Made by a program: the position numbers and the translations under genes. The notes below the pieces were generated by a model. It searched no databases, was not told where the DNA came from, and was given only the letters and a program-made list of their open reading frames with translations. Below are positions 1-37,232 of a stretch of 64,000 nucleotides of DNA, in pieces; positions within the stretch are counted from its first letter, which is position 1; each line of letters opens with the position of its first letter. Origin of the DNA: Aphanomyces cochlioides (taxonomy: Eukaryota; Oomycota; Saprolegniomycetes; Saprolegniales; Verrucalvaceae); assembly GCA_019828595.1 (NCBI GenBank), contig JAHQRK010000009.1, positions 2,666,001-2,730,000 of the forward strand, given 5' to 3'.

Positions 1-2
1 CC

Positions 3-1175
3 GCGCAGACGTCGAGACCCATAACTACACGAGGTGTGGGGAGCTCGATGTCTCCAGGGATTACTCTTGAGGGAGTGGATGGAGTTGAGATTTCTGTACC
101 TATGACGCAATCATCCGACACTCGTCCTTCAAGTCCAGTTACAACTGAAGAACACCAATTTACTCCTGATATGTCCATTTTGAACTCGAGCACCCGCGAA
201 TTTGACCCCTTGGGCAATGACAATGGATCTCCGCTACCATCCCTCATGGATCTATTGGACGATGTTTCTGTTCCAGCCAGGCCACAAACGAATGCGACAA
301 CGGCTGATGCCCCAACCAACCGCCCACGCACTCTGCGAATTCCAACCGACGATGATGACATCGATGAAGTGTTGTTTATCGATGACCACCGCGAAGTGGC
401 ATCAATGCGAAATCGAATTTCAACTATTCAATACCAAGTCAACTGGAAGTTTCAACGCCCGGATGGACTCGACAAAGACTGGTTCGACGAAAAAGACCTC
501 AGCGGGTGTCAAGAAGCCGTGGCGATGTACCAACGATGGCGACAAGCTGGAGCCCACTTCCTCACGAACACTGGTCTCGCCCCAACGCTTGCTGAATTTC
601 GAGCGATGGATCCTCTGTGGCTAGAAATTGGCAACAACAGTGACAAATCTTGTCTTGCGGCTGCAATCCGAATCGTTGCTACCAATTTGAATGTCTCCAA
701 TTTTGAGCTCAGCGAAGAAGTCATTTCGGGTTTCAAAGAGGCCCATGGAGTTCCTCAAGACGCGGGCATTCCCCCTTCCAAGATGCATGATTTTCTCAAG
801 CTGGCATACACACATGGATTCCACTACAACGACGCCATATTCTCCCGTCAACTGCTCAAGCAATCGGTGGGTGATCCAATTCGTGATATCTGTAGAGCGA
901 TATTGGATGAGCCTGACGGAGAATTCTTGGTTGTTTCTGTCACTGATTCAACATCCCATTGCTGGGTCCTCGCCAAGCGATACAAGCGCTGCATAGACCG
1001 AAGTCTATGTATGATCCAAGACAATGAAAATGTATACCCCCTGGGTCAGATGCCAAGAGTCAGTTTTATCCGACATATTCGCCGTGTTAGCTTACAAACA
1101 CCGAAGAAATCGAAGTCCCAACGTCGAAGCGAATCAAGAAAACGAAAAGCCAAATTGATTTCCAATTCAGCCTAG
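3..1175 (+). CDS. Family C protein, N-terminus missing (chromodomain plus putative papain-fold cysteine protease)
   Basis: The frame is open from the window edge to the TAG at 1173-1175 and lacks about the first 14 residues seen in the complete copy at 12543-13757. Relative to that 404-aa protein it has the acidic linker, the chromodomain-like stretch (residues about 136-194), the putative protease domain with Cys231, His333 and Asp354, and the basic C-terminus. No disabling change is visible in the part present. Function is inferred; see the complete copy for the domain evidence. Confidence 0.7.
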   Translation, partial: AQTSRPITTRGVGSSMSPGITLEGVDGVEISVPMTQSSDTRPSSPVTTEEHQFTPDMSILNSSTREFDPLGNDNGSPLPSLMDLLDDVSVPARPQTNATTADAPTNRPRTLRIPTDDDDIDEVLFIDDHREVASMRNRISTIQYQVNWKFQRPDGLDKDWFDEKDLSGCQEAVAMYQRWRQAGAHFLTNTGLAPTLAEFRAMDPLWLEIGNNSDKSCLAAAIRIVATNLNVSNFELSEEVISGFKEAHGVPQDAGIPPSKMHDFLKLAYTHGFHYNDAIFSRQLLKQSVGDPIRDICRAILDEPDGEFLVVSVTDSTSHCWVLAKRYKRCIDRSLCMIQDNENVYPLGQMPRVSFIRHIRRVSLQTPKKSKSQRRSESRKRKAKLISNSA

Positions 1176-1211
1176 CAGTTGGAAATGGGATGAGCCTTCG
1201 GGCAATATTAG

Positions 1212-1235
1212 TTTGTAGTTTACATTAACTACAAA
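1212..1235 (+). other. 3' UTR hairpin of family C
   Basis: TTTGTAGTT and AACTACAAA form a perfect 9-bp stem with a 6-nt loop, 18 nt before the insertion point. The same hairpin is at 2868-2891, 13794-13817 and 37175-37198. Family A has a hairpin at the same place. It is a candidate recognition structure for the reverse transcriptase. Confidence 0.65.
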
Positions 1236-1253
1236 TAGACTCCCCATTGACAT

Positions 1254-1267: not shown

Positions 1268-1465
1268 ACCCGACTTTGCTCGCGCTCCAACCTTCAGCCC
1301 CAAATTAACAAGCCCCAAGTATTTATTCAACAAGTCAAAAATCGCTGTACTCCAAAGCCCAAAGTAGAAAATCTGCTGAAGCATTTGGAAGTGGGATGAG
1401 CCGTTAGTAGGCAATATTAGTATTAGTAGATATTGAAAGTCTATTAATATACCTCCCCATTGCAG
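1268..1465 (+). mobile_element. Family A 3' tail, severely 5'-truncated
   Basis: These 198 bp match the last codons of the family A ORF2 and its 3' UTR (33435-33632). The tail sits between two 14-mers, at 1254 and 1466, as expected of a dead-on-arrival 5'-truncated insertion. Its truncation point differs from those at 13851 and 25031, so it is a separate insertion event. Confidence 0.88.
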
Positions 1466-1480
1466 TGAGCTATACGACCT

Positions 1481-2909
1481 ACTCACGATCCGCACAAAAC
1501 ATTTCACTGCCCAATCAAATCGTGCCTGACTCAAGTGTCGCAACTGAGAATAAGTTCAGTGAGAATCTCAAAACAATTCTCCAAGACTCACTTTTGATTT
1601 TACCCAAGACAACAACAATGGAAGCTTCAACGATTTTCACTGCCGATAGCGTACTCCCCGCGCAGACGTCGAGACCCATAACTACACGAGGTGTGGGGAG
1701 CTCGATGTCTCCAGGGATTACTCTTGAGGGAGTGGATGGAGTTGAGATTTCTGTACCTATGACGCAATCATCCGACACTCGTCCTTCAAGTCCAGTTACA
1801 ACTGAAGAACACCAATTTACTCCTGATATGTCCATTTTGAACTCGAGCACCCGCGAATTTGACCCCTTGGGCAATGACAATGGATCTCCGCTACCATCCC
1901 TCATGGATCTATTGGACGATGTTTCTGTTCCAGCCAGGCCACAAACGAATGCGACAACGGCTGATGCCCCAACCAACCGCCCACGCACTCTGCGAATTCC
2001 AACCGACGATGATGACATCGATGAAGTGTTGTTTATCGATGACCACCGCGAAGTGGCATCAATGCGAAATCGAATTTCAACTATTCAATACCAAGTCAAC
2101 TGGAAGTTTCAACGCCCGGATGGACTCGACAAAGACTGGTTCGACGAAAAAGACCTCAGCGGGTGTCAAGAAGCCGTGGCGATGTACCAACGATGGCGAC
2201 AAGCTGGAGCCCACTTCCTCACGAACACTGGTCTCGCCCCAACGCTTGCTGAATTTCGAGCGATGGATCCTCTGTGGCTAGAAATTGGCAACAACAGTGA
2301 CAAATCTTGTCTTGCGGCTGCAATCCGAATCGTTGCTACCAATTTGAATGTCTCCAATTTTGAGCTCAGCGAAGAAGTCATTTCGGGTTTCAAAGAGGCC
2401 CATGGAGTTCCTCAAGACGCGGGCATTCCCCCTTCCAAGATGCATGATTTTCTCAAGCTGGCATACACACATGGATTCCACTACAACGACGCCATATTCT
2501 CCCGTAAACTGCTCAAGCAATCGGTGGGTGATCCAATTCGTGATATCTGTAGAGCGATATTGGATGAGCCTGACGGAGAATTCTTGGTTGTTTCTGTCAC
2601 TGATTCAACATCCCATTGCTGGGCCTCGCCAAGCGATACAAGCGCTGCATAGACCGAAGTCTATGTATGATCCAAGACAATGAAAATGTATACCCCCTGG
2701 GTCAGATGCCAAGAGTCAGTTTTATCCGACATATTCGCCGTGTTAGCTTACAAACACCGAAGAAATCGAAGTCCCAACGTCGAAGCGAATCAAGAAAACG
2801 AAAAGCCAAATTGATTTCCAATTCAGCCTAGCAGTTGGAAATGGGATGAGCCTTCGGGCAATATTAGTTTGTAGTTTACATTAACTACAAATAGACTCCC
2901 CATTGACAT
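1481..2909 (+). mobile_element. Family C element, copy 2, full length
   Basis: The element begins at the same base as the copy at 12406 (ACTCACGATCC), so this is probably the natural 5' end of family C. It has a 5' UTR of about 137 nt, one ORF and a hairpin-bearing 3' UTR, and is flanked by 14-mers at 1466 and 2910. Confidence 0.87.
1618..2831 (+). pseudogene. Family C protein, frameshifted copy
   Basis: The ATG at 1618 is the same start as in the intact copy. The frame is lost near 2624, where one T is missing (GCTGGGCCTC against GCTGGGTCCTC elsewhere), just after the putative catalytic His of the protease domain. Translation would end at 2652 with a short wrong tail; the rest of the original frame resumes at 2624-2831. 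A second difference is a Gln-to-Lys change before LLKQS. The shift removes the Asp/Asn part of the putative active site and the basic tail, so this copy is probably inactive, unless the missing base is a sequencing error. Confidence 0.8.
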
Positions 2910-2925
2910 TGAGCTATACGACCTC

Positions 2926-4458
2926 CCTGAAAACTCGGTCGCCAAGTGGCAGTCCATGGTGTACAAGTTCATCTTGACAAGAAAGCGACACAAGGAAGAC
3001 AAGCACATGTCCTTGATCAACTCTGGCGTGGCGTATCATCCCAGCCTGGGTCTCAGGATTCCGCATATTGCGTCAAGAATTCGTGCTCAACGTGTTCAGC
3101 GACTTCAATTCCTTGTTCAGACCGACAACGAAGAACCATCGTTATGGTCTGTTCTCCCGAAGCAGCTCTTTCGAAGGTGCATGGAGCCGTTCGCAAGATA
3201 CTCGTCGTGGGACTGCCTCATGTATCATCCCAACCACAACACAAATCACATGCGACTTGAAGTACTCCCTTTGTTGTGGCGGAAAATCTGGGCCAACTGG
3301 CATCGTATCCCCCTTACGCGCAAATGTCCTGAAACGCCGACACAATCTCAGCTCCCTACCATGTCTGTTTGGCTGCAAATTCATCCGCTGTTTTTGGTTC
3401 CTGGTTCCAATGGACCAACCTCGCTTGCTGTCGCCCTCAAACATCATCGTCCCTTCTACAAGTTCCTCGCCCAAGAAGGCTTGCATTGCTTGGACGATTT
3501 CGTCACCACACAACGCGTGTGGCCCTCCTATGAAGAATTCAAGTTGCAAATGGAGCCTTACGTTTGGCGGTTCCCTGGCGATGATTTTCCACGCGTGTTT
3601 CGCCATTTGTACTCCCTGCTTTCACTCATTGCGACCACTGTATGGCAAGTACTGGGTATCCCTCTCGTGGAAGCTGTGCCTCCCAATCATGAAGTTCAAA
3701 TCCCCGTCGGACAAGTTTGGAAGAATGTCTTTGTTCCTTTTCAACAATGGCCGCGCAAGTACATCCGATCGATTTGCTTTTGCGCGCCACTACTCACCAA
3801 ACAGCACCCCTTGTCGAGCGATTCAAGAAACAATGATTTGGCGATCAAGAAATACATGAACAAGACTGTGAAACCTTTGATGCGATATCCAACTCCTGTT
3901 CAAGCCGATGTGTGGTGGCGAATCTTGTTTCGGATGCTACCCGTCAACTCTCGCTTCTTTTTCCTTCAAGACACCAACCCTAGCATTATCGAATGCTCCT
4001 TTCCTGGTTGCTCAGCCGTCGAAACGATACAACACATCCTGTTCGACTGCAAGTTTGTCAAGCCTGTGTGGAATTGGCATCAAGCAGCGTGGCGGCCGTT
4101 TGGTATTCCATTTACATGGAATACGATTATCAACCTCGACGAATTCGCGGTTTCTGAAGAATGGGTGTCTCATTTTTCAGTGATTCGTCGTTTGTGGGTC
4201 CTTCTCGTTTCATCTTTGCTACGGGACTTTTGGATTCATCGCAATCGAACCAAGTTTGAAGGCAAAACAGTGCCATACATCCAGGCGGTCAAGGAAGTAT
4301 CTCTTGTTTCGTGGACCGCAAATATCAGACGAATGCTCCGTGATCCTACAATGGACAGTGATGAAGCAATGCAAGTCTCCGAGATAGTCGAAAAACTCAA
4401 GTCTCATACCAACTACACTTGGTTTTGGGAGAAGAACTTGCGAGCGACACTTGTGTAA
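2926..4458 (+). CDS. Family B ORF2 C-terminal fragment (post-RT region and zinc-binding domain)
   Basis: The frame is open from the truncation point and the first ATG is at 2956 (500 aa). The sequence lines up with family A ORF2 from about residue 859 to the end: an opening VAKWQSMVYKFILTRK against VAVWQRMVNKYILGRK, then LGLRIPHIASR, and near the end MLPVNSRFFFLQ followed by a C-x4-C-x7-H-x4-C cluster. That cluster is the zf-RVT type found at the C-terminus of many non-LTR RT proteins. Endonuclease and RT catalytic parts are absent, so no autonomous activity is expected. The frame has no internal stops, which suggests youth or selection-free recent amplification rather than function. Confidence 0.8.
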   Translation, partial: PENSVAKWQSMVYKFILTRKRHKEDKHMSLINSGVAYHPSLGLRIPHIASRIRAQRVQRLQFLVQTDNEEPSLWSVLPKQLFRRCMEPFARYSSWDCLMYHPNHNTNHMRLEVLPLLWRKIWANWHRIPLTRKCPETPTQSQLPTMSVWLQIHPLFLVPGSNGPTSLAVALKHHRPFYKFLAQEGLHCLDDFVTTQRVWPSYEEFKLQMEPYVWRFPGDDFPRVFRHLYSLLSLIATTVWQVLGIPLVEAVPPNHEVQIPVGQVWKNVFVPFQQWPRKYIRSICFCAPLLTKQHPLSSDSRNNDLAIKKYMNKTVKPLMRYPTPVQADVWWRILFRMLPVNSRFFFLQDTNPSIIECSFPGCSAVETIQHILFDCKFVKPVWNWHQAAWRPFGIPFTWNTIINLDEFAVSEEWVSHFSVIRRLWVLLVSSLLRDFWIHRNRTKFEGKTVPYIQAVKEVSLVSWTANIRRMLRDPTMDSDEAMQVSEIVEKLKSHTNYTWFWEKNLRATLV

Positions 4459-4558
4459 AGAAGTCTCAAGATTTCAAGACAATGCAAGAGCTCAATCGAA
4501 CTCACGCAACGATTCAAGTGGCTTTCGAGTAGAACTTAGTAGTCCTTGTTCCCCATTG

Positions 4559-4570
4559 GGTCGTCTAGGC
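4559..4570 (+). other. tRNA-5'-end-like sequence in the B 3' UTR
   Basis: GGTCGTCTAGGC matches the sense strand of the tRNA-Ile 5' end (GGTCGTATAG) in 9 of the first 10 bases. It directly follows CCCCATTG, the string found at the extreme 3' end of families A and C. It is present in all B copies. A role in target pairing is only a possibility. Confidence 0.35.
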
Positions 4571-4628
4571 AAACATTTATAGGGGTTAAAGGTCAAATAT
4601 ACCCCGATTGTCATTGAGCTATACGACC

Positions 4629-5629
4629 TATTATACTTATTCCCATACACACCACATCACACAACACACGTTCTCAAACACATTGACACACACACTTTTT
4701 TTCCACACACAAAAGAAACCTACAACATATCCCACACACCATCCACTCTCCCAACAAAACAAAACCTACGCAATTCAATTTGGCATCCGCTCGTCGTCAG
4801 CCCTCGACAGTCCCAAGCTTCATTCCTCGTGTCCTCTGTCCATATCCTTTTACACGCATACTATTTAATTATAAACGTTATTATTAGCAGAGAGTTTTGA
4901 CCTACATTTTCGTCTTTAAAGTCATGTTTCTCAAACGCTATAATGTTTTCCAAGTTATTTCTTATTGCATGCAAATCCTCATGAAATTCATATTCGGCGG
5001 GTCAAATTTCTTATCAAAACTCAAATACTTTGCTTCAGTATGGAGAAAAGTTCATCGTCGTTGTCGACCACTGTCAAGTGGCTCATTCATATAACGCCAA
5101 CAAGCCAGGACAGAGCTTTGTGTAGGCAAAGCTACACGATCTTGAAAAGATTGTCGATCCCATTCGAGATGCTTCGTTTTGTTTATCCGTGTAGATTCCT
5201 ATTTACATGTATTTTGGATGCATGCCTTGGCTGCCACGTTGAGGTGATTCAAATGAAATTCACAGACTCAGAGATCATTGCAAACGATTGCATGACTACA
5301 TCAAGACATGTCGGCGTATCTCGATGTGTCAACCATCGTAAACACACGAGCGTTTGGAGCAAGCCTCGCGAAGAGACTCAACAGAACAAAAACAAGACTG
5401 CATTTGTCTTGTCAAGAGTATAGATGGACACTTCAGATGGACCACAGTCCGTGAAAGAGAGATTCAAGGAATGTCTTATCCATATGTGCGTAGAGGTGAG
5501 CACCTCTTTTCGTGCTGGACGTGGCATGAGGTGACTAGTAAGAGCTGAGAAGAATACAGGAGGAATCCTAAGGAAAGGCGAGAATGTTGGGAGGAGAGGA
5601 CGAAATCGGAGAAAAGGGGAAAAAAACGT
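4629..5629 (+). repeat. F block copy 1: spacer of the tRNA-Ile array
   Basis: About 1.0 kb of non-element DNA that precedes every tRNA in the window. It starts with an AC-rich, T/C-rich low-complexity stretch (4640-4760), becomes AT-rich (about 4860-5040), then mixed. No convincing host gene is seen. Short ORFs here are inconsistent between copies; one reading frame (5039-5194) vaguely resembles an elongation-factor-P-like KOW domain but is stopped in this copy by TAG at 5126-5128. F is either the old spacer of a tRNA tandem array or the join made when the first unit was duplicated. Confidence 0.8.
5620..5626 (-). terminator. Pol III terminator, T7
   Basis: Seven A residues on the plus strand lie 3 nt beyond the 3' end of the tRNA and read as T7 in the tRNA direction, the standard RNA polymerase III stop signal. 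Confidence 0.85.
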
Positions 5630-5702
5630 TGGTCATACTGGGGCTCGAACCCAGGACCCTGGCGTTATTAGCACCATGCTCTACCGACTGAGCTATACGA
5701 CC
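5630..5702 (-). tRNA. tRNA-Ile(AAU), copy 1
   Basis: The minus strand folds into a 73-nt tRNA without intron. The acceptor stem is GGTCGTA/TATGACC with one G-T pair, and the discriminator is A. The D arm is GCTC..GAGC, the anticodon stem TGGTG/CGCCA around the loop CTAATAA (anticodon AAT, isoleucine codon AUU), and the T arm CTGGG/CCCAG around TTCGAGC. Internal A and B boxes are intact. Family E abuts its first base, and the element's target duplication re-creates its first 14 nt, so the gene should still be transcribable. Confidence 0.96.
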
Positions 5703-5755
5703 CCAGTTTCCAATTTGCCAGCTACCCCGCAGTACCACTGTCCAAAACTGACAAC

Positions 5756-8221
5756 ATGGCGACTACCCGCTCTTCCAGCCGTGCTCATGCACACAAGCCC
5801 TCAGCTTTTTCTGTCTCTCCCTTTCGCAATACCTCGGACGCTTCTAGTATCATGGAGGTGATTGTTGACGATGATGATGACGATGAACCTGACTCAATCA
5901 TCGACAAAACTCCGCCTGCTGCTCAACCGCCCATACGTCTTGCTACACTCGGTGGTCGCGTGCCATTACCAAGCGCTCGTACCAGCGACAAAACTGTCAA
6001 CAAGGATAATGTTTCTCCGATGCCTGATGAAGACATAGAGGATATCTCCAACAACAACCAACCACATACCCCACCGATTACTCAAGCCACTGAGCTGGAG
6101 CCGCGCTCTGAAGACCAATCGATTCGCGACACCAATGTTGATGTGGAAATGGAGCCTGAAGCTCAAATCGATGCCTCGCCTCCTGCTACAACACGCTCCG
6201 TGCCAATACCACCCGAGTCGAACACCTCGACCAAAAAGCCAAACGAATGCGTGTGGGAATTCCAAGCCAAGCAGAGAGCTAAATCTGCCAAGGCTCAGCG
6301 GAACAGTGACGTCGGCCATTATCGACCAACTATGGCCGAGCTGGCGTCCTTGTTGCAAAAACGCGCGACAGGATCTCTCACGTTTGACGACACTTTGCCC
6401 ATCCAAAAACATTCCCCCAGAGATGTTGTTGGCTGGCTACAAATGTCCACTGGCCAATACACCAAATACATCGACATCTCCAAGGCAATGACATCTCTAT
6501 TGTTTGACAACCAAGCGCTTGATTTGGACGATGCATTTGTCGATGTCATCAAGTGCGAGAAAGATGTCTCCAATCGTCTTCTCAAGTGGGGCATAGCCTC
6601 TGAAGATGCTCTTAAAAAGCTGCGTGGAGTCTCTCTCAAGATCCAAGTGGCAAAGGATGGCAGCTCTCAGAGATTTGTCATGACTGAGCCCCATATACTT
6701 GATGGATATTTCATCGATATCCCATCTGGTCTCCAAGGACAGGATGAAGAACGTCTCATGTTCAGCATCATGTCAAAGCTTGAGCCGCGCTTTTTGTGGG
6801 GCTCATACTCCACAGTTTCCTCGACGACTGGCTTGGCTAGCTCTCGTTATCGCTTGTATTTTGAAGGGACAGCTATACCCGAATCTATGCACAATGACGG
6901 TCGATCAATTGAAGAATTCATTTTCAAGGGTCGGTGCCTCCGCGTGTTTGGTCAAGGATGGTTTTACCGTGACAAGAAGCTCGCGCGCCTTGACCTCGAT
7001 GTAATCGCCACCCAACATGGACTTCACGCAACCCCTCACCGCCCACGGGGAGACGCCGCTGTCTCGACATCCACTGCCAAACGGCAGAAAACGACCCGAG
7101 ACAGCAACAAGGAATGGACTGAAGTTCAAACTACAGGCAAAAGAAAGAAAACCCCAATCTCCGCTGGCTCAATCCCAGCTCCTGATCGTCCTTGGATCTC
7201 CCCGAACATGTTTGCGGCTCTGGACGAACGCGCTAATGTTGAGCCCGAGGAACACGAAACGACAGTTGGCAACACCACTGTCAAAGTAATTGTTCCAAAG
7301 CTGACACTCAAATCTGGTGACAAGGTGCACGTTTCCGCTGAAGAGTTCATTAGCGGGATCAAACCCCACGAGGGCTCAATCCAAAGGTTTGAGAAGTCTC
7401 TCGATGCCATACTTGCCGAGCTCAACGACCTTGACACCAAGGCTCAAAACGCACCACAACATATCCCGGCCCAAGTTAAGGAAGCGTTAGCGCACGATTC
7501 CTTCAACTTATTGAAATTGATTACGGACGGGCGTGTTGACACGATCTGCATCCATCTAGAACGTGCGCCAATCGAATTTGGACTGCAACTGCACCAAATT
7601 TTTGTCTCCAATCGTGACAGCTTCGAATACTTTGTTCGTCTTCGACTGCTTAATCGTTGGCTAAGAGCGTCTGGTGGTGGCACAAAATCTTTTGGTCAGC
7701 TCTACGAGGCAACATTCGGCACTCCAATCACTCACGACCACGTGATCTCGGTGTTCAGTGACCAGAAGATGGTCAACAACCTCCCACTCATCGAGGCAAT
7801 CATCACCGATGATGACATCGTCCTCAACAGAGTTGAAGTCGAAGAAGTGCTGGCCATTGCAGAAGTATTGATGGCAGTTCATGCTCCACTATATTTCAAT
7901 AGCGATGCGGCAATTTTGGCCTCAACAAAAAGTCCAGTGACAGCGTTACCCTCTCGCCTTGGTAAACGCAGTCTATCCTCCGAAACGCTCATGTCACTCC
8001 TGATGTACACCGACCTTGGCCTCCACATATGGAACAGAATGGAATTCATGTACACTGGCGACGGAGAATCGATGTGTCACATCATGACAAAAATCCTTCA
8101 ACTACACGAAAGCAACGATTTGGATATCACTCTCCACAATCAAGTCATGTTTCACCCAAGCGAACCTACTTTAATTCACGGCGACCTAGCGGATCTCACA
8201 ACGATCGCTTCCCGTGGCTAA
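5756..8221 (+). CDS. Family E ORF1 protein (RNA-binding / RNP protein)
   Basis: 821 aa from the first ATG after the 53-nt leader. Residues 1-160 are disordered and acidic with a run of aspartates (38-43). Residues about 318-405 (YFIDIP ... SSRYRLYFEG ... KGRCLRVFGQGWFYR) have the beta-alpha-beta spacing of an RRM-like domain, as in many non-LTR ORF1 proteins; this is by inspection only. Basic clusters AKRQK (441) and GKRKK (461) could serve nuclear entry or RNA binding. From 480 (WISPNMFAALDE) to the end is a helix-rich domain also present in families A and D. No CCHC zinc knuckle is visible. The stop overlaps the start of ORF2. Expected role: coat the element RNA and help target-primed reverse transcription. 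Confidence 0.8.
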   Translation: MATTRSSSRAHAHKPSAFSVSPFRNTSDASSIMEVIVDDDDDDEPDSIIDKTPPAAQPPIRLATLGGRVPLPSARTSDKTVNKDNVSPMPDEDIEDISNNNQPHTPPITQATELEPRSEDQSIRDTNVDVEMEPEAQIDASPPATTRSVPIPPESNTSTKKPNECVWEFQAKQRAKSAKAQRNSDVGHYRPTMAELASLLQKRATGSLTFDDTLPIQKHSPRDVVGWLQMSTGQYTKYIDISKAMTSLLFDNQALDLDDAFVDVIKCEKDVSNRLLKWGIASEDALKKLRGVSLKIQVAKDGSSQRFVMTEPHILDGYFIDIPSGLQGQDEERLMFSIMSKLEPRFLWGSYSTVSSTTGLASSRYRLYFEGTAIPESMHNDGRSIEEFIFKGRCLRVFGQGWFYRDKKLARLDLDVIATQHGLHATPHRPRGDAAVSTSTAKRQKTTRDSNKEWTEVQTTGKRKKTPISAGSIPAPDRPWISPNMFAALDERANVEPEEHETTVGNTTVKVIVPKLTLKSGDKVHVSAEEFISGIKPHEGSIQRFEKSLDAILAELNDLDTKAQNAPQHIPAQVKEALAHDSFNLLKLITDGRVDTICIHLERAPIEFGLQLHQIFVSNRDSFEYFVRLRLLNRWLRASGGGTKSFGQLYEATFGTPITHDHVISVFSDQKMVNNLPLIEAIITDDDIVLNRVEVEEVLAIAEVLMAVHAPLYFNSDAAILASTKSPVTALPSRLGKRSLSSETLMSLLMYTDLGLHIWNRMEFMYTGDGESMCHIMTKILQLHESNDLDITLHNQVMFHPSEPTLIHGDLADLTTIASRG

Positions 8222-11200
8222 AGTGGTCGCGGCTGGTCATTTTGTCAAGCTCCCCATACTTGAAGTGACGACGAGCAACCTCAATGGGCTGAAAGAAAAC
8301 GGACATCTTGTTGCACGGCGTCTTCGGAAACCGACACAAGCTGTTCTCTTTCAAGAAACGAAACTCAACAACGCAAAACATCTTGACACTTTCCACACTC
8401 ACCTCGACAACGAAGTGGGTGTTAGCAAGTACAAACTTTTTACCAACGACTTACGAACAACCCGCACGGACAATTTGAACAACCGTCGATGTGGCGTTGC
8501 ATCATACTTTCACGAATCGATGCCTGGATTCTCAAGCCTGGTGCACTTATCACAACACGATATCCCTGGCCGTTATATTGTGATCAAAACGTACTGGGAT
8601 GAAACCCCAGTCTACATCCACAACATTTACGCGCCAGTTACCCCTCAACATCGGGCTAGTTTCTTTGACAGTCTCCCTCGCGCTTTTGAAGCTAACAGTG
8701 TACACCTGGTTGGGGGAGATTTTAACCTTCCTGTCAACGAACACCTCGATGCTTCCAAACCACGGCAAGATCACACCTTTGGAAAAGTCGAATGTCTTGC
8801 CTGGCTGTCACAACTAGGAGTCATCGACGCGTGGCGCCTACACCACCCTCACGAAAGACTGGCAAGCGGTCCAGGACGAAGCAATCGTCTGGACTACTGG
8901 TTCATTGACCAAGATTTAGTTGCCCAATCCTACCAAAGCTCAAAATATGCCACTAACAGCTTTGCCGGAGATCACTTGGAGCACACTGTCGTTCTCTCTA
9001 CAAGTCATACACCCACGACCCGTGGCTACTGGAGGCTGCCGAGAGAGCTACTCAAAGACCCGCTCGTCATCAAAGCCATACGAGAAGAGGCATCACACCT
9101 CCTCTCTGAGATGCGTGCGGACGAATCGACAAACATGGGAGCCGTCTGGTATGGGTGGCTTAAGCGAATCAAACGACGTTTACAACAATGTCATCGCCAC
9201 CACCTCCAATCCATGCAACACGAGCTCAAAAGCCTAAAACTGAGACATATATCTGCACAACGATCATACGAAGCTGGCTTGCTCGACGAGGCTGCCGTTG
9301 ATGCTACTCGGTTGGCGCTGGAAAACGCAAGAATCGAATATCGCCAATACCGCATGGATCAGCAATTCGATTTTCATGCAAATATCAACGAACGCGGTAC
9401 GAGCCACTTCTTTCGAAGGCCACAAGGACTCAAGGTTCCTATCACGACGGTCAACGTCGATGGCATTCCCGTGTCTGATCCTACCACTATCAAAGAGAGA
9501 TTCACTGCCCATTGGAAGGCAATAATGACTACCACTCGTGGCGAACAACCTCGGCTAAACCGGGCGAGGCGGAGGGCTGTCATACGGTTTATCTCCCGCA
9601 AACTCAATGATGAGCAACGCGAGGAGCTAGACAGACCTATCACAGCAGCCGAGCTGTGTAGTGCTCTCAAGACAATGAGTCCAAACAAGTCTCCTGGTCC
9701 TGATGGATGGCCAGCGGCCTTCTTCCAAGTAGCACCCGAGGCTTTCTCCGAAATCCTGGTCAGGGTCTTCAACTACCAACTTCACCACCACGGTAAACTA
9801 CTCCTTCAACAAAGGCGTAGTGCTGTGGCTCTGCTCTTCAAAGCTGGTGATCGAGGCGATCCTGGAAACTACCGACCTATTGCACTCATGTCAGTGGAGG
9901 TGAAGATACTATCCCGTGCCCTCGCTTATCGCCTGGCTACAGTAGCTCCTCATCTCATTCACCCAAGTCAAGCTGGCTTTGTCCCAGGACGACGGCTGCA
10001 TGACCACGTCCTGCTTGTGCAAACTTTGCAAACGTTTTGCACCAACGAAGATCACGACTACTATGCAACATTCCTTGACTTTTCGAAAGCGTACGACATG
10101 GTGGATCGAGAATTTATGCTTGATGTGCTGAGAGAAGTCAACACTGGTGATGGTTTCATTGCGTGGGTAGCTCTTTTGTACGACTCACCTTTGGTCCAGA
10201 TCATCTTCAATGGCGAGCTTGGCCCTAAGATCCGACCTACCCGAGGCGTCAAACAAGGCTGTCCTTTATCATGCCTACTGTTCGTCCTATACCTAGAACC
10301 TCTTGGTGAGATGCTCCGAGCGTCCCCACATCTTGGAATCGCTCTCCCCCACGACTCAGTTATTACGAGTATATTCTTTGCCGACGACTCGACGTTGTTA
10401 TCAAACTCGCTGCAATCTGCTGTGGAGCAAATGGCAATTGTGGAAGAGTTTTGCACGGCTTCAGGGGCCCGTCTGAATCGTTCCAAGTGCATGACCTTGG
10501 TTCTCAACGACCATCTCGATCAAGAAGACATCGAAGCAGATGGTTTGCTCAATATCGTACCAACTGGTCAGTGTACGAAATATCTTGGTATTCTCTTTGG
10601 CCATCGACTTTCGGCTGACTCCCAACTTCAAAAACTCAACGACAAATTCATCTCGTCCTTTCAACTATGGGGTAAACGAGCAAGGACATTGCAGGGCCGA
10701 AAGCTTATTGCCTCCACGATGTTGCTATCTATGTTGTGGCATGTAACAGCCGTTGTACCTGTGCCTCCTGCTATGGTCGTTACGTGGCAACAAATGTTAA
10801 ACAAGTTCATACTTTGCCGCAAGACCCAGCTCGATGAGAGTTACCGTCCCTCAATCCATAGAAGGTGGCAGTACGACAAGCCTTTAGGCTTGGGAATCCC
10901 CCACATTGCATCGAGGCTGCGAACACAACGCCTTCTTCGTTTACAGCTCTTTATGTCTGCCGATTCTCCTGGTGAAATCCTGGTGTGGAAGAAACTTGTA
11001 CAGCGACAATTTAGCCGCACAATACATCAGTTATTCCGAGACAGTCACCCATTCGATTTTCTTTCATACTACCCAAATGCAAGCTCCAAGTGGCTTTTGC
11101 TTCGCGAGCTCCATCCACTGTGGCTTGATACTTGGAAACATTGGTCAGCCACAGACATGAGTAAGCGAATCGGCGTGCCTCCAAATCTCGACACGGTACT

Positions 11201-12329
11201 GAACCTCCCGGTATGGCTCACAGCCTACGACGCAATGCACTTCGGCTCTGCTAAGATGTTAGCAAATGTCGTGAAAGATGAAGACATGCGTCTCTGGTGC
11301 CGCCACGGGGCCAAAAATGGTCTCAGATGCCTGAAGGATTTCCTGACCCCACATGGTGCTTGGCCAACAGAGACCATGTTCGTGAACCGAATGTCGTCGA
11401 ACAATCCAGCTGCCCAAGTTTGTCTAAACCAGGACGGAGTCATGGACTTTGCCACATTGCCCCGCACAACCGACATTTACAATCAACTCACACGAATCTT
11501 CGACAAAGTTGTTCGATCGTTTGACATTCGGCAAGGGTCGCCACTGCCTAATGTCCCGACTTGTCAACATCCGTTTACAGCCAGAATCAAGGATGCTGAT
11601 TTACCTTTCGAGTCGTGGCCCAAGAAAAACGTGGTGCATTTAGCTTACCACGCCCCCCAGACTGAAGCTATACATCCTATGAAGACTACGACAAGAACTG
11701 ACAAAGACATAGCAAAGTATATCCGTCTCATTCGTACTGTGTGTAATCTACCTCCACCTGTTCAAGGCGATGTATGGTTTCGATTGCACATGAAGATGTT
11801 ACCCGTCAACTCGAGGTTTTCCTATATGCAGATCCAAAACCCTGACGCTATTTGTTGTGTCTACGAAGATTGCTCGGATGTTGAGACTTTTCATCATGCC
11901 TTCCATACATGTCATCATGTACATCAAGTTTGGATGTTCCAAGAGCGAGCATGGAGTGCTTATGGTGTTAAGTTTGATTGGGCAACCACCACGAATATCA
12001 GTCGCTTCAAGACCAATACGCGAGGAAAACACCTGCATGACGCATTATTCAAATTATGGTCCCTCCTTTGTGCTTCCATCACGTACTCCTTATGGACTCA
12101 AAGAAATGCAACCAAGTTCGATGGCAAAAAGCCTCTACCGATTTTACTATGGAACGAGATTATATTTGTCAGTTGGACAGCTTCCATCAGGCGAACAATT
12201 CGTTTGCTCTCGCCTGACGACTTCGACTATCGAAACATCATCGAAGCGGTCTCAGTCCTTTTCTCTCAAGCTGGATACAACGAGCTATTCGACAAATATC
12301 CCATGTCTTTTCGAGTTGAACACCAGTAA
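8190..12329 (+). CDS. Family E ORF2: APE endonuclease, reverse transcriptase, zinc-binding C-terminus
   Basis: The frame opens after a TAG at 8187 and overlaps ORF1 in the +1 frame. No ATG lies near the start (the first is residue 103 counted from GTG 8214), so start by frameshift or reinitiation is likely. From GTG 8214 it is 1371 aa. Endonuclease motifs: SNLNG (21-25), FQETK (46-50), HNIYAP, GDFN (168-171), RLDYWF and GDH (252-254). RT: motif A FLDFSKAYD (about 622), motif B RGVKQGCPLS, motif C FFADD (about 723), KYLGILFGH. The C-terminal C-x4-C-x7-H-x4-C cluster (about 1214) is of zf-RVT type. No RNase H is seen. All catalytic residues are present, so this copy may encode an active enzyme. 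APE-type, perhaps L1/Tx1 group. Confidence 0.9.
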   Translation, partial: RISQRSLPVAKVVAAGHFVKLPILEVTTSNLNGLKENGHLVARRLRKPTQAVLFQETKLNNAKHLDTFHTHLDNEVGVSKYKLFTNDLRTTRTDNLNNRRCGVASYFHESMPGFSSLVHLSQHDIPGRYIVIKTYWDETPVYIHNIYAPVTPQHRASFFDSLPRAFEANSVHLVGGDFNLPVNEHLDASKPRQDHTFGKVECLAWLSQLGVIDAWRLHHPHERLASGPGRSNRLDYWFIDQDLVAQSYQSSKYATNSFAGDHLEHTVVLSTSHTPTTRGYWRLPRELLKDPLVIKAIREEASHLLSEMRADESTNMGAVWYGWLKRIKRRLQQCHRHHLQSMQHELKSLKLRHISAQRSYEAGLLDEAAVDATRLALENARIEYRQYRMDQQFDFHANINERGTSHFFRRPQGLKVPITTVNVDGIPVSDPTTIKERFTAHWKAIMTTTRGEQPRLNRARRRAVIRFISRKLNDEQREELDRPITAAELCSALKTMSPNKSPGPDGWPAAFFQVAPEAFSEILVRVFNYQLHHHGKLLLQQRRSAVALLFKAGDRGDPGNYRPIALMSVEVKILSRALAYRLATVAPHLIHPSQAGFVPGRRLHDHVLLVQTLQTFCTNEDHDYYATFLDFSKAYDMVDREFMLDVLREVNTGDGFIAWVALLYDSPLVQIIFNGELGPKIRPTRGVKQGCPLSCLLFVLYLEPLGEMLRASPHLGIALPHDSVITSIFFADDSTLLSNSLQSAVEQMAIVEEFCTASGARLNRSKCMTLVLNDHLDQEDIEADGLLNIVPTGQCTKYLGILFGHRLSADSQLQKLNDKFISSFQLWGKRARTLQGRKLIASTMLLSMLWHVTAVVPVPPAMVVTWQQMLNKFILCRKTQLDESYRPSIHRRWQYDKPLGLGIPHIASRLRTQRLLRLQLFMSADSPGEILVWKKLVQRQFSRTIHQLFRDSHPFDFLSYYPNASSKWLLLRELHPLWLDTWKHWSATDMSKRIGVPPNLDTVLNLPVWLTAYDAMHFGSAKMLANVVKDEDMRLWCRHGAKNGLRCLKDFLTPHGAWPTETMFVNRMSSNNPAAQVCLNQDGVMDFATLPRTTDIYNQLTRIFDKVVRSFDIRQGSPLPNVPTCQHPFTARIKDADLPFESWPKKNVVHLAYHAPQTEAIHPMKTTTRTDKDIAKYIRLIRTVCNLPPPVQGDVWFRLHMKMLPVNSRFSYMQIQNPDAICCVYEDCSDVETFHHAFHTCHHVHQVWMFQERAWSAYGVKFDWATTTNISRFKTNTRGKHLHDALFKLWSLLCASITYSLWTQRNATKFDGKKPLPILLWNEIIFVSWTASIRRTIRLLSPDDFDYRNIIEAVSVLFSQAGYNELFDKYPMSFRVEHQ

Positions 12330-12405
12330 TTTGATTACAAGCCCCAGCTGTATTCTTGACTTGGTATCCCAGCTGAATTTTTGATTGGGAATCCTGGCGA
12401 CCATC

Positions 12406-13835
12406 ACTCACGATCCGCGCAAAACATTTCACTGCCCAATCAAATCGTGCCTGACTCAAGTGTCGCAACTGAGAATAAGTTCAGTGAGAATCTCAAAACA
12501 ATTCTCCAAGACTCACTTTTGATTTTACCCAAGACAACAACAATGGAAGCTTCAACGATTTTCACTGCCGATAGCGTACTCCCCGCGCAGACGTCGAGAC
12601 CCATAACTACACGAGGTGTGGGGAGCTCGATGTCTCCAGGGATTACTCTTGAGGGAGTGGATGGAGTTGAGATTTCTGTACCTATGACGCAATCATCCGA
12701 CACTCGTCCTTCAAGTCCAGTTACAACTGAAGAACACCAATTTACTCCTGATATGTCCATTTTGAACTCGAGCACCCGCGAATTTGACCCCTTGGGCAAT
12801 GACAATGGATCTCCGCTACCATCCCTCATGGATCTATTGGACGATGTTTCTGTTCCAGCCAGGCCACAAACGAATGCGACAACGGCTGATGCCCCAACCA
12901 ACCGCCCACGCACTCTGCGAATTCCAACCGACGATGATGACATCGATGAAGTGTTGTTTATCGATGACCACCGCGAAGTGGCATCAATGCGAAATCGAAT
13001 TTCAACTATTCAATACCAAGTCAACTGGAAGTTTCAACGCCCGGATGGACTCGACAAAGACTGGTTCGACGAAAAAGACCTCAGCGGGTGTCAAGAAGCC
13101 GTGGCGATGTACCAACGATGGCGACAAGCTGGAGCCCACTTCCTCACGAACACTGGTCTCGCCCCAACGCTTGCTGAATTTCGAGCGATGGATCCTCTGT
13201 GGCTAGAAATTGGCAACAACAGTGACAAATCTTGTCTTGCGGCTGCAATCCGAATCGTTGCTACCAATTTGAATGTCTCCAATTTTGAGCTCAGCGAAGA
13301 AGTCATTTCGGGTTTCAAAGAGGCCCATGGAGTTCCTCAAGACGCGGGCATTCCCCCTTCCAAGATGCATGATTTTCTCAAGCTGGCATACACACATGGA
13401 TTCCACTACAACGACGCCATATTCTCCCGTCAACTGCTCAAGCAATCGGTGGGTGATCCAATTCGTGATATCTGTAGAGCGATATTGGATGAGCCTGACG
13501 GAGAATTCTTGGTTGTTTCTGTCACTGATTCAACATCCCATTGCTGGGTCCTCGCCAAGCGATACAAGCGCTGCATAGACCGAAGTCTATGTATGATCCA
13601 AGACAATGAAAATGTATACCCCCTGGGTCAGATGCCAAGAGTCAGTTTTATCCGACATATTCGCCGTGTTAGCTTACAAACACCGAAGAAATCGAAGTCC
13701 CAACGTCGAAGCGAATCAAGAAAACGAAAAGCCAAATTGATTTCCAATTCAGCCTAGCAGTTGGAAATGGGATGAGCCTTCGGGCAATATTAGTTTGTAG
13801 TTTACATTAACTACAAATAGACTCCCCATTGACAT
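12406..13835 (+). mobile_element. Family C element, copy 3, downstream half of an E-C chimera
   Basis: Full-length C starting at the same base as copy 2, but preceded by family E 3' UTR (GGCGACCATC) instead of a tRNA stub. It ends normally at the 14-mer 13836-13849. The reference copy for this family because its ORF is intact. Confidence 0.87.
12543..13757 (+). CDS. Family C protein, intact: probable chromodomain and possible papain-fold cysteine protease
   Basis: 404 aa from an ATG in an A-rich context (ACAACAACAATGG); the frame is open further left but only this ATG is shared by both full-length copies. Residues 1-130 are Ser/Thr/Pro-rich and end in DDDDID. Residues about 136-194 look like a chromodomain: YQVNWKF resembles the YLVKWKG core, WF..KDL resembles WEP..NL, then a helix EAVAMYQRW. 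Residues about 215-375 resemble a papain-like protease: SDKSCLAAA puts Cys231 at a helix start, SHCWVL gives His333 after a strand, and MIQDNEN gives Asp354 or Asn355. OTU or C39-like families are the nearest thought, without certainty. The tail 382-398 is strongly basic (possible NLS). There is no endonuclease or RT. A chromatin-reading, protein-processing accessory role is inference. Confidence 0.6.
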   Translation: MEASTIFTADSVLPAQTSRPITTRGVGSSMSPGITLEGVDGVEISVPMTQSSDTRPSSPVTTEEHQFTPDMSILNSSTREFDPLGNDNGSPLPSLMDLLDDVSVPARPQTNATTADAPTNRPRTLRIPTDDDDIDEVLFIDDHREVASMRNRISTIQYQVNWKFQRPDGLDKDWFDEKDLSGCQEAVAMYQRWRQAGAHFLTNTGLAPTLAEFRAMDPLWLEIGNNSDKSCLAAAIRIVATNLNVSNFELSEEVISGFKEAHGVPQDAGIPPSKMHDFLKLAYTHGFHYNDAIFSRQLLKQSVGDPIRDICRAILDEPDGEFLVVSVTDSTSHCWVLAKRYKRCIDRSLCMIQDNENVYPLGQMPRVSFIRHIRRVSLQTPKKSKSQRRSESRKRKAKLISNSA

Positions 13836-13850
13836 TGAGCTATACGACCT

Positions 13851-14269
13851 CAACCTTCACTATATTTGGACAACGCACAACGCCGCCAAGTTCGAATCGA
13901 AGGAGCCGCCTCCGCCAGAAATTTGGCAAGAAGTCAGCTTCATCCGATGGCATGCATCGATCCGCAGATGGCTTCGCCTCCAAGAAGTTGACAGCCCTCA
14001 ACGAGTGGAAGCAATTTCAGCAATCAATACTTTGCATAGACAACCTGTCTATCGCCCACTGGTAGCCAAGTACCCGACTTTGCTCGCGCTCCAACCTTCA
14101 GCCCCAAATTAACAAGCCCCAAGTATTTATTCAACAAGTCAAAAATCGCTGTACTCCAAAGCCCAAAGTAGAAAATCTGCTGAAGCATTTGGAAGTGGGA
14201 TGAGCCGTTAGTAGGCAATATTAGTATTAGTAGATATTGAAAGTCTATTAATATACCTCCCCATTGCAG
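13851..14269 (+). mobile_element. Family A 3' tail (419 bp), 5'-truncated
   Basis: It matches 33214-33632: the last 86 codons or so of A ORF2 (from NLHYIW, stop at 14110-14112) and the full 3' UTR. The same truncation point recurs at 25031/25032, so the two copies descend from one insertion by unit duplication. Flanked by 14-mers at 13836 and 14270. Confidence 0.9.
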
Positions 14270-14283
14270 TGAGCTATACGACC

Positions 14284-15974
14284 TCCCTGAAAACTCGGTC
14301 GCCAAGTGGCAGTCCATGGTGTACAAGTTCATCTTGACAAGAAAGCGACACAAGGAAGACAAGCACATGTCCTTGATCAACTCTGGCGTGGCGTATCATC
14401 CCAGCCTGGGTCTCAGGATTCCGCATATTGCGTCAAGAATTCGTGCTCAACGTGTTCAGCGACTTCAATTCCTTGTTCAGACCGACAACGAAGAACCATC
14501 GTTATGGTCTGTTCTCCCGAAGCAGCTCTTTCGAAGGTGCATGGAGCCGTTCGCAAGATACTCGTCGTGGGACTGCCTCATGTATCATCCCAACCACAAC
14601 ACAAATCACATGCGACTTGAAGTACTCCCTTTGTTGTGGCGGAAAATCTGGGCCAACTGGCATCGTATCCCCCTTACGCGCAAATGTCCTGAAACGCCGA
14701 CACAATCTCAGCTCCCTACCATGTCTGTTTGGCTGCAAATTCATCCGCTGTTTTTGGTTCCTGGTTCCAATGGACCAACCTCGCTTGCTGTCGCCCTCAA
14801 ACATCATCGTCCCTTCTACAAGTTCCTCGCCCAAGAAGGCTTGCATTGCTTGGACGATTTCGTCACCACACAACGCGTGTGGCCCTCCTATGAAGAATTC
14901 AAGTTGCAAATGGAGCCTTACGTTTGGCGGTTCCCTGGCGATGATTTTCCACGCGTGTTTCGCCATTTGTACTCCCTGCTTTCACTCATTGCGACCACTG
15001 TATGGCAAGTACTGGGTATCCCTCTCGTGGAAGCTGTGCCTCCCAATCATGAAGTTCAAATCCCCGTCGGACAAGTTTGGAAGAATGTCTTTGTTCCTTT
15101 TCAACAATGGCCGCGCAAGTACATCCGATCGATTTGCTTTTGCGCGCCACTACTCACCAAACAGCACCCCTTGTCGAGCGATTCAAGAAACAATGATTTG
15201 GCGATCAAGAAATACATGAACAAGACTGTGAAACCTTTGATGCGATATCCAACTCCTGTTCAAGCCGATGTGTGGTGGCGAATCTTGTTTCGGATGCTAC
15301 CCGTCAACTCTCGCTTCTTTTTCCTTCAAGACACCAACCCTAGCATTATCGAATGCTCCTTTCCTGGTTGCTCAGCCGTCGAAACGATACAACACATCCT
15401 GTTCGACTGCAAGTTTGTCAAGCCTGTGTGGAATTGGCATCAAGCAGCGTGGCGGCCGTTTGGTATTCCATTTACATGGAATACGATTATCAACCTCGAC
15501 GAATTCGCGGTTTCTGAAGAATGGGTGTCTCATTTTTCAGTGATTCGTCGTTTGTGGGTCCTTCTCGTTTCATCTTTGCTACGGGACTTTTGGATTCATC
15601 GCAATCGAACCAAGTTTGAAGGCAAAACAGTGCCATACATCCAGGCGGTCAAGGAAGTATCTCTTGTTTCGTGGGCCGCAAATATCAGACGAATGCTCCG
15701 TGATCCTACAATGGACAGTGATGAAGCAATGCAAGTCTCCGAGATAGTCGAAAAACTCAAGTCTCATACCAACTACACTTGGTTTTGGGAGAAGAACTTG
15801 CGAGCGACACTTGTGTAAAGAAGTCTCAAGATTTCAAGACAATGCAAGAGCTCAATCGAACTCACGCAACGATTCAAGTGGCTTTCGAGTAGAACTTAGT
15901 AGTCCTTGTTCCCCATTGGGTCGTCTAGGCAAACATTTATAGGGGTTAAAGGTCAAATATACCCCGATTGTCAT
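14284..15974 (+). mobile_element. Family B element, copy 2
   Basis: Same truncation point and ends as copy 1; flanked by 14-mers at 14270 and 15975. It has AAACATTTAT before the 3' end, like copies 1 and 3. Confidence 0.88.
14286..15818 (+). CDS. Family B ORF2 C-terminal fragment, copy 2
   Basis: Open throughout, first ATG 14316 (500 aa). It differs from copy 1 by one visible residue: Thr to Ala in SWAANIRR near the C-terminus. It keeps the two codons (VK) that are missing from copies 3-6. It contains only the region after the RT and the zinc cluster. Confidence 0.8.
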   Translation, partial: PENSVAKWQSMVYKFILTRKRHKEDKHMSLINSGVAYHPSLGLRIPHIASRIRAQRVQRLQFLVQTDNEEPSLWSVLPKQLFRRCMEPFARYSSWDCLMYHPNHNTNHMRLEVLPLLWRKIWANWHRIPLTRKCPETPTQSQLPTMSVWLQIHPLFLVPGSNGPTSLAVALKHHRPFYKFLAQEGLHCLDDFVTTQRVWPSYEEFKLQMEPYVWRFPGDDFPRVFRHLYSLLSLIATTVWQVLGIPLVEAVPPNHEVQIPVGQVWKNVFVPFQQWPRKYIRSICFCAPLLTKQHPLSSDSRNNDLAIKKYMNKTVKPLMRYPTPVQADVWWRILFRMLPVNSRFFFLQDTNPSIIECSFPGCSAVETIQHILFDCKFVKPVWNWHQAAWRPFGIPFTWNTIINLDEFAVSEEWVSHFSVIRRLWVLLVSSLLRDFWIHRNRTKFEGKTVPYIQAVKEVSLVSWAANIRRMLRDPTMDSDEAMQVSEIVEKLKSHTNYTWFWEKNLRATLV

Positions 15975-16989: not shown

Positions 16990-17062
16990 TGGTCATACTG
17001 GGGCTCGAACCCAGGACCCTGGCGTTATTAGCACCATGCTCTACCGACTGAGCTATACGACC
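16990..17062 (-). tRNA. tRNA-Ile(AAU), copy 2
   Basis: Identical in all 73 nt to copy 1. Family D starts at the base next to its 5' end. Confidence 0.96.
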
Positions 17063-17146
17063 CCACTTTTACTTTTGCCGTCAACCACTCAAGTCAGTAG
17101 TCAGTTCAAGTAAGGTACCCCTCCCGCCTCCCAAGTGAAGTGAAGT

Positions 17147-19839: not shown

Positions 19840-20442
19840 AGTCCTCGCGGCTGTTGTGCAAGGTCAACCACAAACACACCCAAACAATCCACCAACAAAC
19901 TCAACGCAACCATCCTTTCCAAACTCTTCGCTATCCAAGTTATCTATCGCCACAGCCAATATCAATGGTGTATCGAGAGATAGTGGAAACTTACTTGTAA
20001 ATTCCATGATCTCGAGGTACAACATTGTCGGCTTACAAGAGACCAAATTTGCTGGTATCGTGCAATTCGACAAGTTCCAATTCCACTTGACGCATGCTCT
20101 TGGCAAAGACCAGTACTTCCTTGCTTCAAACGACCATCGACAAAATTCCGACCAAGTGGAGCAATACCGCTCAGGTGGTGTTGCGATGGTCTTCCAAGCC
20201 ACAGTGCCGGGTTTCGAACATCTTCACCACGAAACCCAATACGACATCGAGGATCGCTACATGGTGGTTAGCTCTATGTGGGGTGATGATCCGATTTATT
20301 ACCACAATATATACGCGCCAGTGCAAGACAATGAACGTGACGCGTTCTTCAATTCCTTGCCGCGAAATTTTCCGCTCAACTCTAGGCATGTCGTCTTGGG
20401 TGACTTCAACCTTCCAATGGACAGAGACCTTGATTCCAGGGG
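19838..20442 (+). pseudogene. Family D ORF2, endonuclease part only
   Basis: It overlaps the end of ORF1 in the +1 frame (KVLAAVV next to the ORF1 stop), matching KVVAAG of A and E. It has no nearby ATG; the open frame is usable from GTG 19856. APE-type endonuclease motifs: IATANINGVS, LQETKF, YYHNIYAP and LGDFNLPMDRDLD. It is cut at the chimera junction before the RLDY and SDH-type motifs, and the frame then runs through family A DNA out of register to 21046. No active endonuclease or RT is expected. Confidence 0.8.
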
Positions 20443-22086: not shown

Positions 22087-22243
22087 CAAGCCCCAAGTAT
22101 TTATTCAACAAGTCAAAAATCGCTGTACTCCAAAGCCCAAAGTAGAAAATCTGCTGAAGCATTTGGAAGTGGGATGAGCCGTTAGTAGGCAATATTAGTA
22201 TTAGTAGATATTGAAAGTCTATTAATATACCTCCCCATTGCAG
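20443..22243 (+). mobile_element. Family A 3' part, downstream half of the D-A chimera
   Basis: It matches A from ORF2 codon 838 (A position 31833) to the 3' end, with the A hairpin, and ends at the 14-mer 22244-22257. The breakpoint differs from all the other A truncation points in the window. Confidence 0.88.
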
Positions 22244-24957: not shown

Positions 24958-25030
24958 TGGTCATACTGGGGCTCGAACCCAGGACCCTGGCGTTATTAGC
25001 ACCATGCTCTACCGACTGAGCTATACGACC
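24958..25030 (-). tRNA. tRNA-Ile(AAU), copy 3
   Basis: Identical to the other copies. Its 5' end abuts a 419-bp family A tail, making this the shortest tRNA-to-tRNA unit (3,204 bp). Confidence 0.96.
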
Positions 25031-28161: not shown

Positions 28162-28234
28162 TGGTCATACTGGGGCTCGAACCCAGGACCCTGGCGTTAT
28201 TAGCACCATGCTCTACCGACTGAGCTATACGACC
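28162..28234 (-). tRNA. tRNA-Ile(AAU), copy 4
   Basis: Identical to the other copies. A 5'-truncated family A element follows its 5' end. Confidence 0.96.
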
Positions 28235-28236
28235 TA

Positions 28237-33475: not shown

Positions 33476-33586
33476 CAAGCCCCAAGTATTTATTCAACAA
33501 GTCAAAAATCGCTGTACTCCAAAGCCCAAAGTAGAAAATCTGCTGAAGCATTTGGAAGTGGGATGAGCCGTTAGTAGGCAATATTA

Positions 33587-33617: not shown

Positions 33618-33646
33618 ACCTCCCCATTGCAGTGAGCTATACGACC

Positions 33647-37216: not shown

Positions 37217-37232
37217 TGAGCTATACGACCTA

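Follow-up and report, generated by a model that had tools for sequence, protein, structure and literature searches.

Four families of non-LTR retrotransposons in Aphanomyces cochlioides very probably integrate within the A box of tRNA genes and, by way of a 14-bp duplication of the target, rebuild the gene that they enter. The elements occupy one site, lie in one orientation relative to the tRNA, are bounded by the duplication and are stacked upon one another, and at least three types of tRNA gene are used. The window, by which is meant the whole 64,000-nt stretch of DNA that was analyzed, corresponds to C89:2666001-2730000, and genome-wide counts refer to the 76.2-Mb genome of this organism in 94 contigs.

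The 14-mer TGAGCTATACGACC is present in 28 exact copies in the window, 28/28 on the plus strand, compared to none in 100 shuffles. Eight copies are the ends of intact tRNA-Ile(AAU) genes on the minus strand (5630..5702, 16990..17062, 24958..25030, 28162..28234, 36345..36417, 45343..45415, 53532..53604 and 61722..61794); in the first of these genes, the reverse complement of nt 1-14 occupies 5689-5702. The other 20 copies directly follow the 3' ends of elements from families A (4), B (8) and C (8). All 28 copies are thereby placed just as an earlier, sequence-only reading had described them, namely as 20 solo 14-mers and 8 intact tRNAs. The half of the 14-mer that abuts the element reads TGAGCTA, which is the tRNA A box TAGCTCA in reverse complement, and the A-box consensus is TRGCNNAGYNGG.

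The full-length A element of the window (5703..13835, plus strand, 8133 bp) starts at a tRNA 5' end and is followed by TGAGCTATACGACC at 13836. Its three ORFs, all on the plus strand, are open. The ORF1 frame (5672..8221; 849 codons from stop to stop) opens inside the tRNA, with its first ATG within the element, and gave no Pfam match; ORF2 (8190..12329) encodes an APE-type endonuclease and a reverse transcriptase, and ORF3 (12360..13757) has 465 codons. This element, apparently the 'E' of the sequence-only reading, had been taken as a separate family, a label that must be dropped: the A segment at the window start (1..1253, the 3' part of a 4648-bp segment that starts before the window) is 100% identical to the end of 5703-13835, which is thus the full-length form of A. 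Likewise, the element apparently labeled 'D' (17063..22243, plus strand) is a chimera, in which the first 3383 nt are D and the last 1801 nt are B, each 99.9% identical to its parent; a template switch or a deletion within a stack is proposed as its origin. The description of both elements as beginning at the tRNA 5' end was correct. Family D itself is a fourth family of about 9.24 kb, and its true 3' ends are found only outside the window.

The remaining elements of the window are likewise on the plus strand, and those that are complete within it are 5'-truncated. Beyond the A segment at the window start lie members of families B (1268..1465, 198 bp), A (1480..2909, 1430 bp) and C (2924..4614, 1691 bp). 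The full-length A element is followed by B (13850..14269, 420 bp) and C (14284..15974) copies, and the chimera by a C copy (22258..23942). The next two stacks each consist of a B and a C copy, at 25031..25450 (420 bp) and 25465..27148 in one case and at 28235..33632 (5398 bp, with ORF2 at 29285-33475) and 33647..35331 in the other. An A copy (36418..37216, 799 bp) then precedes B (37231..42628) and C (42643..44327), followed by two more stacks of B and C (45416..50813 and 50828..52518; 53605..59004 and 59019..60709) and by the 5' part of a B element that continues beyond the window end (61795..64000). Eight array spacers separate the stacks from the tRNA genes; the first occupies 4629..5629 and begins with the native flank TATTATACTT, and the others start at 15989, 23957, 27163, 35346, 44342, 52533 and 60724.

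The array as a whole is a tandem repeat of tRNA-Ile and a spacer of about 1 kb, with a native spacer start of either TATTATACTT or TATTACACTT and with zero to four elements between the tRNA and the spacer. A 233-kb stretch around the window (C89:2535001-2768000) contains 82 copies of the 14-mer, accounted for by 26 tRNA-Ile genes and 56 element 3' ends (A 11, B 20, C 22 and D 3), every one of which abuts the 14-mer. All elements on this stretch have the same orientation, head-to-head with the tRNA. Among its 25 units, one has no element, five have one, twelve have two, three have three and four have four, with a 21-kb composite segment scored as one element. That segment (C89:2576112-2597461) lies between two 14-mers and has a B start, a D end and about 12.5 kb of other sequence between them. 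Solo 14-mers behind elements are missing everything from nt 15 on and are seemingly not reused: every stack begins with a whole tRNA. In the entire genome the Ile 14-mer occurs 156 times, tRNA genes included, with 82 copies on the C89 stretch and the others listed on C47, C54, C7 (one copy) and C94 (at least one). The single copy on C7 was rejected as a chance match, since ARAGORN found no tRNA in the surrounding 10 kb. The host's supply of tRNA-Ile(AAU) may lie wholly within element-filled arrays.

The association of element 3' ends with the A box extends throughout the genome. The 3' ends of the four families, which terminate in CCCCATTGACAT (A), CCCCATTGCAG (B), CCCCGATTGTCAT (C) and CGCGATTGTACAC (D), were counted next to TGAGCTA with up to one mismatch for A, B and C, and with up to one or up to three for D. 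At this tolerance of one mismatch the motif abuts 203 of 203 A ends, 221 of 224 B ends and 50 of 50 C ends (49 of the latter exactly); the A ends divide into 53 and 150 by strand, counts that did not change once TGAGCTA was added to the query. Among 78 D ends, TGAGCTA is exact in 60, within one mismatch in 68 and within three in 75, and family D is looser in its site use than the other families. Three of the 224 B ends and three of the 78 D ends fall outside these limits, and the motif is exact in every row among the matches listed for A and for B (at least 100 each). The proposal that several families share one site is thus borne out for A, B, C and D, all with TGAGCTA or a near variant, and the genome-wide count did not find what would have spoken against it, namely 3' ends lying mostly beside unrelated sequence. 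Among the matches listed, A, B and D ends also occur in clusters that span up to about 250 kb, with several close to contig ends; clusters of 3' ends were seen on C2, C13, C15, C22, C23, C24, C30, C34 (in two places), C36 and C89. On C23 and C36, amid such clusters, are 51 of 63 scored tRNA matches, of which the one that was read is a tRNA-Asn.

Evidence that other tRNA genes are used came from 20 A ends, picked from several contigs among the matches listed (100 of 203) and all outside the Ile arrays. Nineteen carry TGAGCTA and one carries TGAGCCA, in each case followed by seven variable bases, and together they provide nine 14-mers besides that of tRNA-Ile, or ten in all. ARAGORN confirmed a tRNA for three of the ten, Ile(AAU), Lys(UUU) and Asn(GUU), and the other seven resemble tRNA 5' ends as judged by the 14-mer alone. 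The outer seven bases differ from one tRNA to another, so the elements target the A box in several kinds of tRNA gene; the earlier identification of the A box as target therefore stands, and its restriction to tRNA-Ile does not, since Lys and Asn sites are also used. The inner half has variants as well: TGAGCCA at seven D sites and one A site, TGCGCTA at one D site, and TAAGCTA at one C and one D site. These inner bases vary as A boxes do, which argues that they are target DNA rather than element DNA and, with the variable outer half, agrees with the earlier view that the 14-mer is not an internal part of the elements.

The duplication itself is evident from a comparison of filled and empty sites. 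In an uninserted unit at C89:2608197, the tRNA-Ile gene leads directly into native flank (CTCTACCGAC-TGAGCTATACGACC-TATTACACTT), while filled array units have the 14-mer on both sides of the insert; the uninserted unit could itself be a clean loss through recombination between 14-mers. At a tRNA-Lys(UUU) gene on C12, where the two ends of the insertion were read, an A 5' end lies against the tRNA, an A 3' end lies 8128 bp further on, and the same TGAGCTAAACGGGA is found at both ends. Full-length A copies on C89 measure 8129 and 8133 bp, which matches this spacing; because a CAGT occurs in both the element and the native flank, the 5' junction can be placed only to within a few bases. On C36, nine bases were read beside a tRNA-Asn(GUU) gene. 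They match A at a point about 436 bp short of the element's end, consistent with how far away the A 3' end lies, and the junction carries one extra base. All three loci appear to fit a duplication of tRNA nt 1-14, and the uninserted unit and the two ends at tRNA-Lys lend support to the 14-bp stagger that had been suggested for the window. As also anticipated, whole tRNA-Ile genes are left beside the elements. The distance between the mature tRNA 5' end and the element start ranges from 0 to a few bp. Full-length copies vary by 0-3 C residues at the 5' junction (TAT in one case), which means that the second cut is not fixed to a base in every copy. A 651-nt stretch on C1 from a tRNA-Lys to a B 3' end may not be a single truncated B, because the bases on the tRNA side are absent from the B copy checked; it was not counted as a junction, and its 3' end is included in the B count.

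A target-primed model would account for this arrangement. The endonuclease most likely nicks the sense strand of the tRNA gene between nt 14 and 15 (TAGCTCA^G), and the freed 3' OH would then prime reverse transcription, which would begin at the 3' end of the element RNA. A cut in the opposite strand at position 1 of the mature tRNA, offset by 14 nt, would leave the new element head-to-head with a whole tRNA gene and a reverse-complement copy of nt 1-14 behind the element 3' end. The rebuilt tRNA could be hit again, and elements would stack with the newest beside the tRNA. The nick is placed after A14 because the fixed base at the 3' junction would be the primer end of target-primed reverse transcription, and this junction supports the nick position suggested by the sequence-only reading. 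Since nt 1-14 are equally long in these tRNAs, a 14-bp duplication would rebuild whichever one is hit. From this arrangement we infer the order of the two nicks, the order of stacking in time and the continued function of the rebuilt tRNAs. The endonuclease would read the A box directly; it is probable that this L1-like lineage recognizes the box as a DNA sequence, with a cut spacing equal to the distance from the box to the mature 5' end, and that tRNA genes with TAGCTCA serve as reusable, regenerated sites.

The proteins of these elements are consistent with an L1-like origin. ORF2 of A matches human L1 ORF2p across the endonuclease and reverse transcriptase (1.1e-56), and its reverse transcriptase matches Pfam RVT_1 (1.4e-32). 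The endonuclease aligns to the L1 protein from residue 122, NIYAP and GDFN included, and residues Y147, D177, N179, D261 and H262, which we take to be the catalytic endonuclease residues, are invariant in an alignment of 13 sequences. Pfam gave no endonuclease match on A ORF2 itself at 1e-3, and PF03372 is annotated on the ORF2 relatives P0007 and P0008. The families combine variable 5' truncation with a fixed 3' end, as is characteristic of L1-like non-LTR elements, and the APE domain precedes the reverse transcriptase, which sets them apart from RLE-type elements. Judged by sequence, A to D are four families of one L1-like, APE-type non-LTR lineage. ORF2 identity is 64% between A and B, 38% between A and D, and 62% between C and D (the last over part of the reverse transcriptase). 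In a midpoint-rooted reverse transcriptase tree of 39 rows, which include a few named oomycete and plant proteins and no named Tx1 reference, C joins D, and A and B join A. astaci and other proteins. Because the same site is used despite an A-D identity of only 38%, the specificity is likely old in the lineage, and the simplest reading is that it would predate the split of A/B from C/D. The first 37 bases of A and B are identical despite the distance between the families; they occupy the position expected for the upstream region of a rebuilt tRNA gene, and a promoter role is possible.

ORF3 of A had no Pfam or PDB match, a protein search yielded three relatives (two of them from A. cochlioides), and no ORF3-like frame follows ORF2 in the B copy examined. 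One ORF3 relative, P0068, has a weak chromodomain match (E 0.015) that falls short of the cut-off, and the conserved Cys/His residues of ORF3 (SCLAAA, SHCW) might, as a guess, belong to a peptidase-like part. An Rfam search for a 5' ribozyme at E up to 10 (window positions 5600-7000) gave no HDV-like match, with only the tRNA passing the gathering score. For one copy per family at three lengths, RNA structure z-scores at the 3' end were -3.26 to -2.33 for A, -2.90 to -2.68 for B, -2.44 to -0.95 for D and -0.57 to 0.29 for C. No relatives of the elements were confirmed in viral and genome contig collections. When use of the target in other species was sought as antisense-tRNA translation in 69 proteins, the sole clear case was P0067 (AC1031_016288) of A. 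cochlioides itself, an annotated hypothetical protein that seems to run from antisense tRNA (...ALPTELSR...) into a truncated A element and is probably an annotation artefact.

Could the pattern have arisen without repeated targeting, by unequal crossing-over that amplified a single composite repeat? Array units are indeed near-identical, with a mean identity of 99.84% among 21 C copies and 99.48% among 24 spacers; 24 of the 26 tRNA-Ile genes on the C89 stretch are identical in sequence, and one C start is seen 21 times and one B start 6 times. The units are therefore recent copies of each other, and many junctions were copied rather than made anew. Because the window lies within one tandem tRNA array that was amplified along with its insertions, its 20 junctions are not 20 events. 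Against amplification as the sole cause, which is excluded, stand the 28 combinations of family and 14-base 5' start on the C89 stretch. Nine are full-length-type starts, in 10 copies, and the remaining 46 copies have 18 different truncated starts (two C starts one base apart being merged), which represent three families and meet at one base. Some of the 18 may have come from deletion instead of insertion. The same type of junction is also found elsewhere, at tRNA-Lys and tRNA-Asn. Amplification and targeting both occurred, and a composite repeat that spread without targeting is exceedingly improbable. Just as hard to credit is a specificity for tRNA-Ile alone with other sites being minor, even though all 28 window sites and all 56 element 3' ends on the C89 stretch are tRNA-Ile sites. 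The 156 Ile 14-mers of the genome, tRNA genes included, are too few for 203 A and 224 B ends, all 20 A sites sampled outside Ile arrays carry other 14-mers, nine in total, and the proven insertions at tRNA-Lys and tRNA-Asn refute it.

The near-constancy of TGAGCTA across all four families would also be expected if it were the element's own 3' end, with a true duplication of only the outer seven bases. This explanation is very improbable, as the variants TGAGCCA, TGCGCTA and TAAGCTA, judged from the site sequence alone, depart from TGAGCTA as tRNA A boxes do, and the whole 14-mer flanks elements on either side and is also present once in the uninserted unit. A more serious alternative, though still a doubtful one, is that the integration complex is tethered through Pol III factors (TFIIIC at the A box, TFIIIB), in the manner of TRE5-A, and that the endonuclease has little sequence preference of its own. 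The insertion sites are tRNA genes, and family D uses variant A boxes; in the available part of the TRE5-A literature, targeting is lost with box B mutations and the ORF1 protein interacts with TFIIIB proteins (PMC5911963). Tethering alone, however, should also admit tRNA genes whose A boxes differ and should scatter the insertion positions, whereas the cut falls on the same base in nearly every copy and the site is narrow, with exact TGAGCTA at 49/50 C ends, 60/78 D ends and all A and B rows among the matches listed (100 each). It is possible that tethering is combined with direct reading by the endonuclease. A tRNA-derived SINE or composite tRNA element was also considered and rejected, because the tRNA is antisense to the element and of several types, and stands beside native flank in the uninserted unit.

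Direct reading of the A box, with regeneration of the gene, would have several implications. Descriptions of site-specific LINEs usually link each to a single gene, and the most familiar examples disrupt whichever copy they enter. A single cut geometry that suits several tRNA genes and restores each one would account for the accumulation of elements in essential genes, and, if true, these families occupy tRNA arrays in stacks, much as R elements inhabit rDNA. Insertion of R1 or R2 disrupts the rRNA unit that is hit, whereas A to D would rebuild their gene. The endonucleases of the four families, which use the same site at ORF2 identities down to 38%, offer a comparative set for how an APE-type enzyme reads a site of 7-8 bp, and with them the question of whether tRNA-gene targeting depends on DNA sequence or on a Pol III factor would become directly testable. 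Landing in a sequence common to several tRNA genes without breaking them would also be a model of harmless-site integration, which is of practical interest.

Among the matches listed in the literature, where subscription journals are thinly covered and a Repbase entry may exist, no A-box-specific non-LTR elements were found, and none such in Aphanomyces. Several known systems share features with A to D, as far as the available parts of the sources describe them. NeSL-1_TV (tRNA-Pro), LIN15_SM (tRNA-Arg) and LIN25_SM (tRNA-Glu) are likewise non-LTR elements specific for tRNA genes, but they are discussed among NeSL-related groups with restriction-like endonucleases and use one tRNA type each (PMC4640811), whereas A to D have an APE/L1-like endonuclease and use several tRNA types through the A box. 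The dictyostelid TRE5, TRE3, NLTR-A and NLTR-B are L1-type elements that insert beside many tRNA genes (PMC5006619). TRE5 lies upstream of the tRNA in the opposite orientation and NLTR-A lies 2-6 bp upstream of the mature tRNA, both of which resemble A to D (PMC5006619; PMC5911963). The dictyostelid sites, in the same sources, are windows outside the gene, with Pol III dependence for TRE5-A, in contrast to the single base inside the gene at which A to D would cut; A to D also start 0 to a few bp from the tRNA, unlike the insertion about 50 bp upstream that is typical of TRE5-like elements. Dada DNA transposons are found inside tRNA genes, many of them at the A box, and three Perkinsus families duplicate TAGCTC (nt 8-13), much like the A to D site (PMC3706591, PMC8869645). 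Dada elements differ from A to D in having a DDE transposase, a 6-7 bp duplication and a separate tRNA for each family (PMC3706591, PMC8869645). R1 and R2 in rRNA genes and Keno and Utopia in U2 genes are, like A to D, site-specific non-LTR elements of multicopy RNA genes, and Utopia-1_NVit is sometimes found in tandem (PMC4640811, PMC3706591). Large tRNA arrays are known in an oomycete (PMC9584435). The parts of the system described here are thus known separately, as tRNA-specific LINEs, L1-type LINEs near tRNA genes, A-box DNA transposons and oomycete tRNA arrays.
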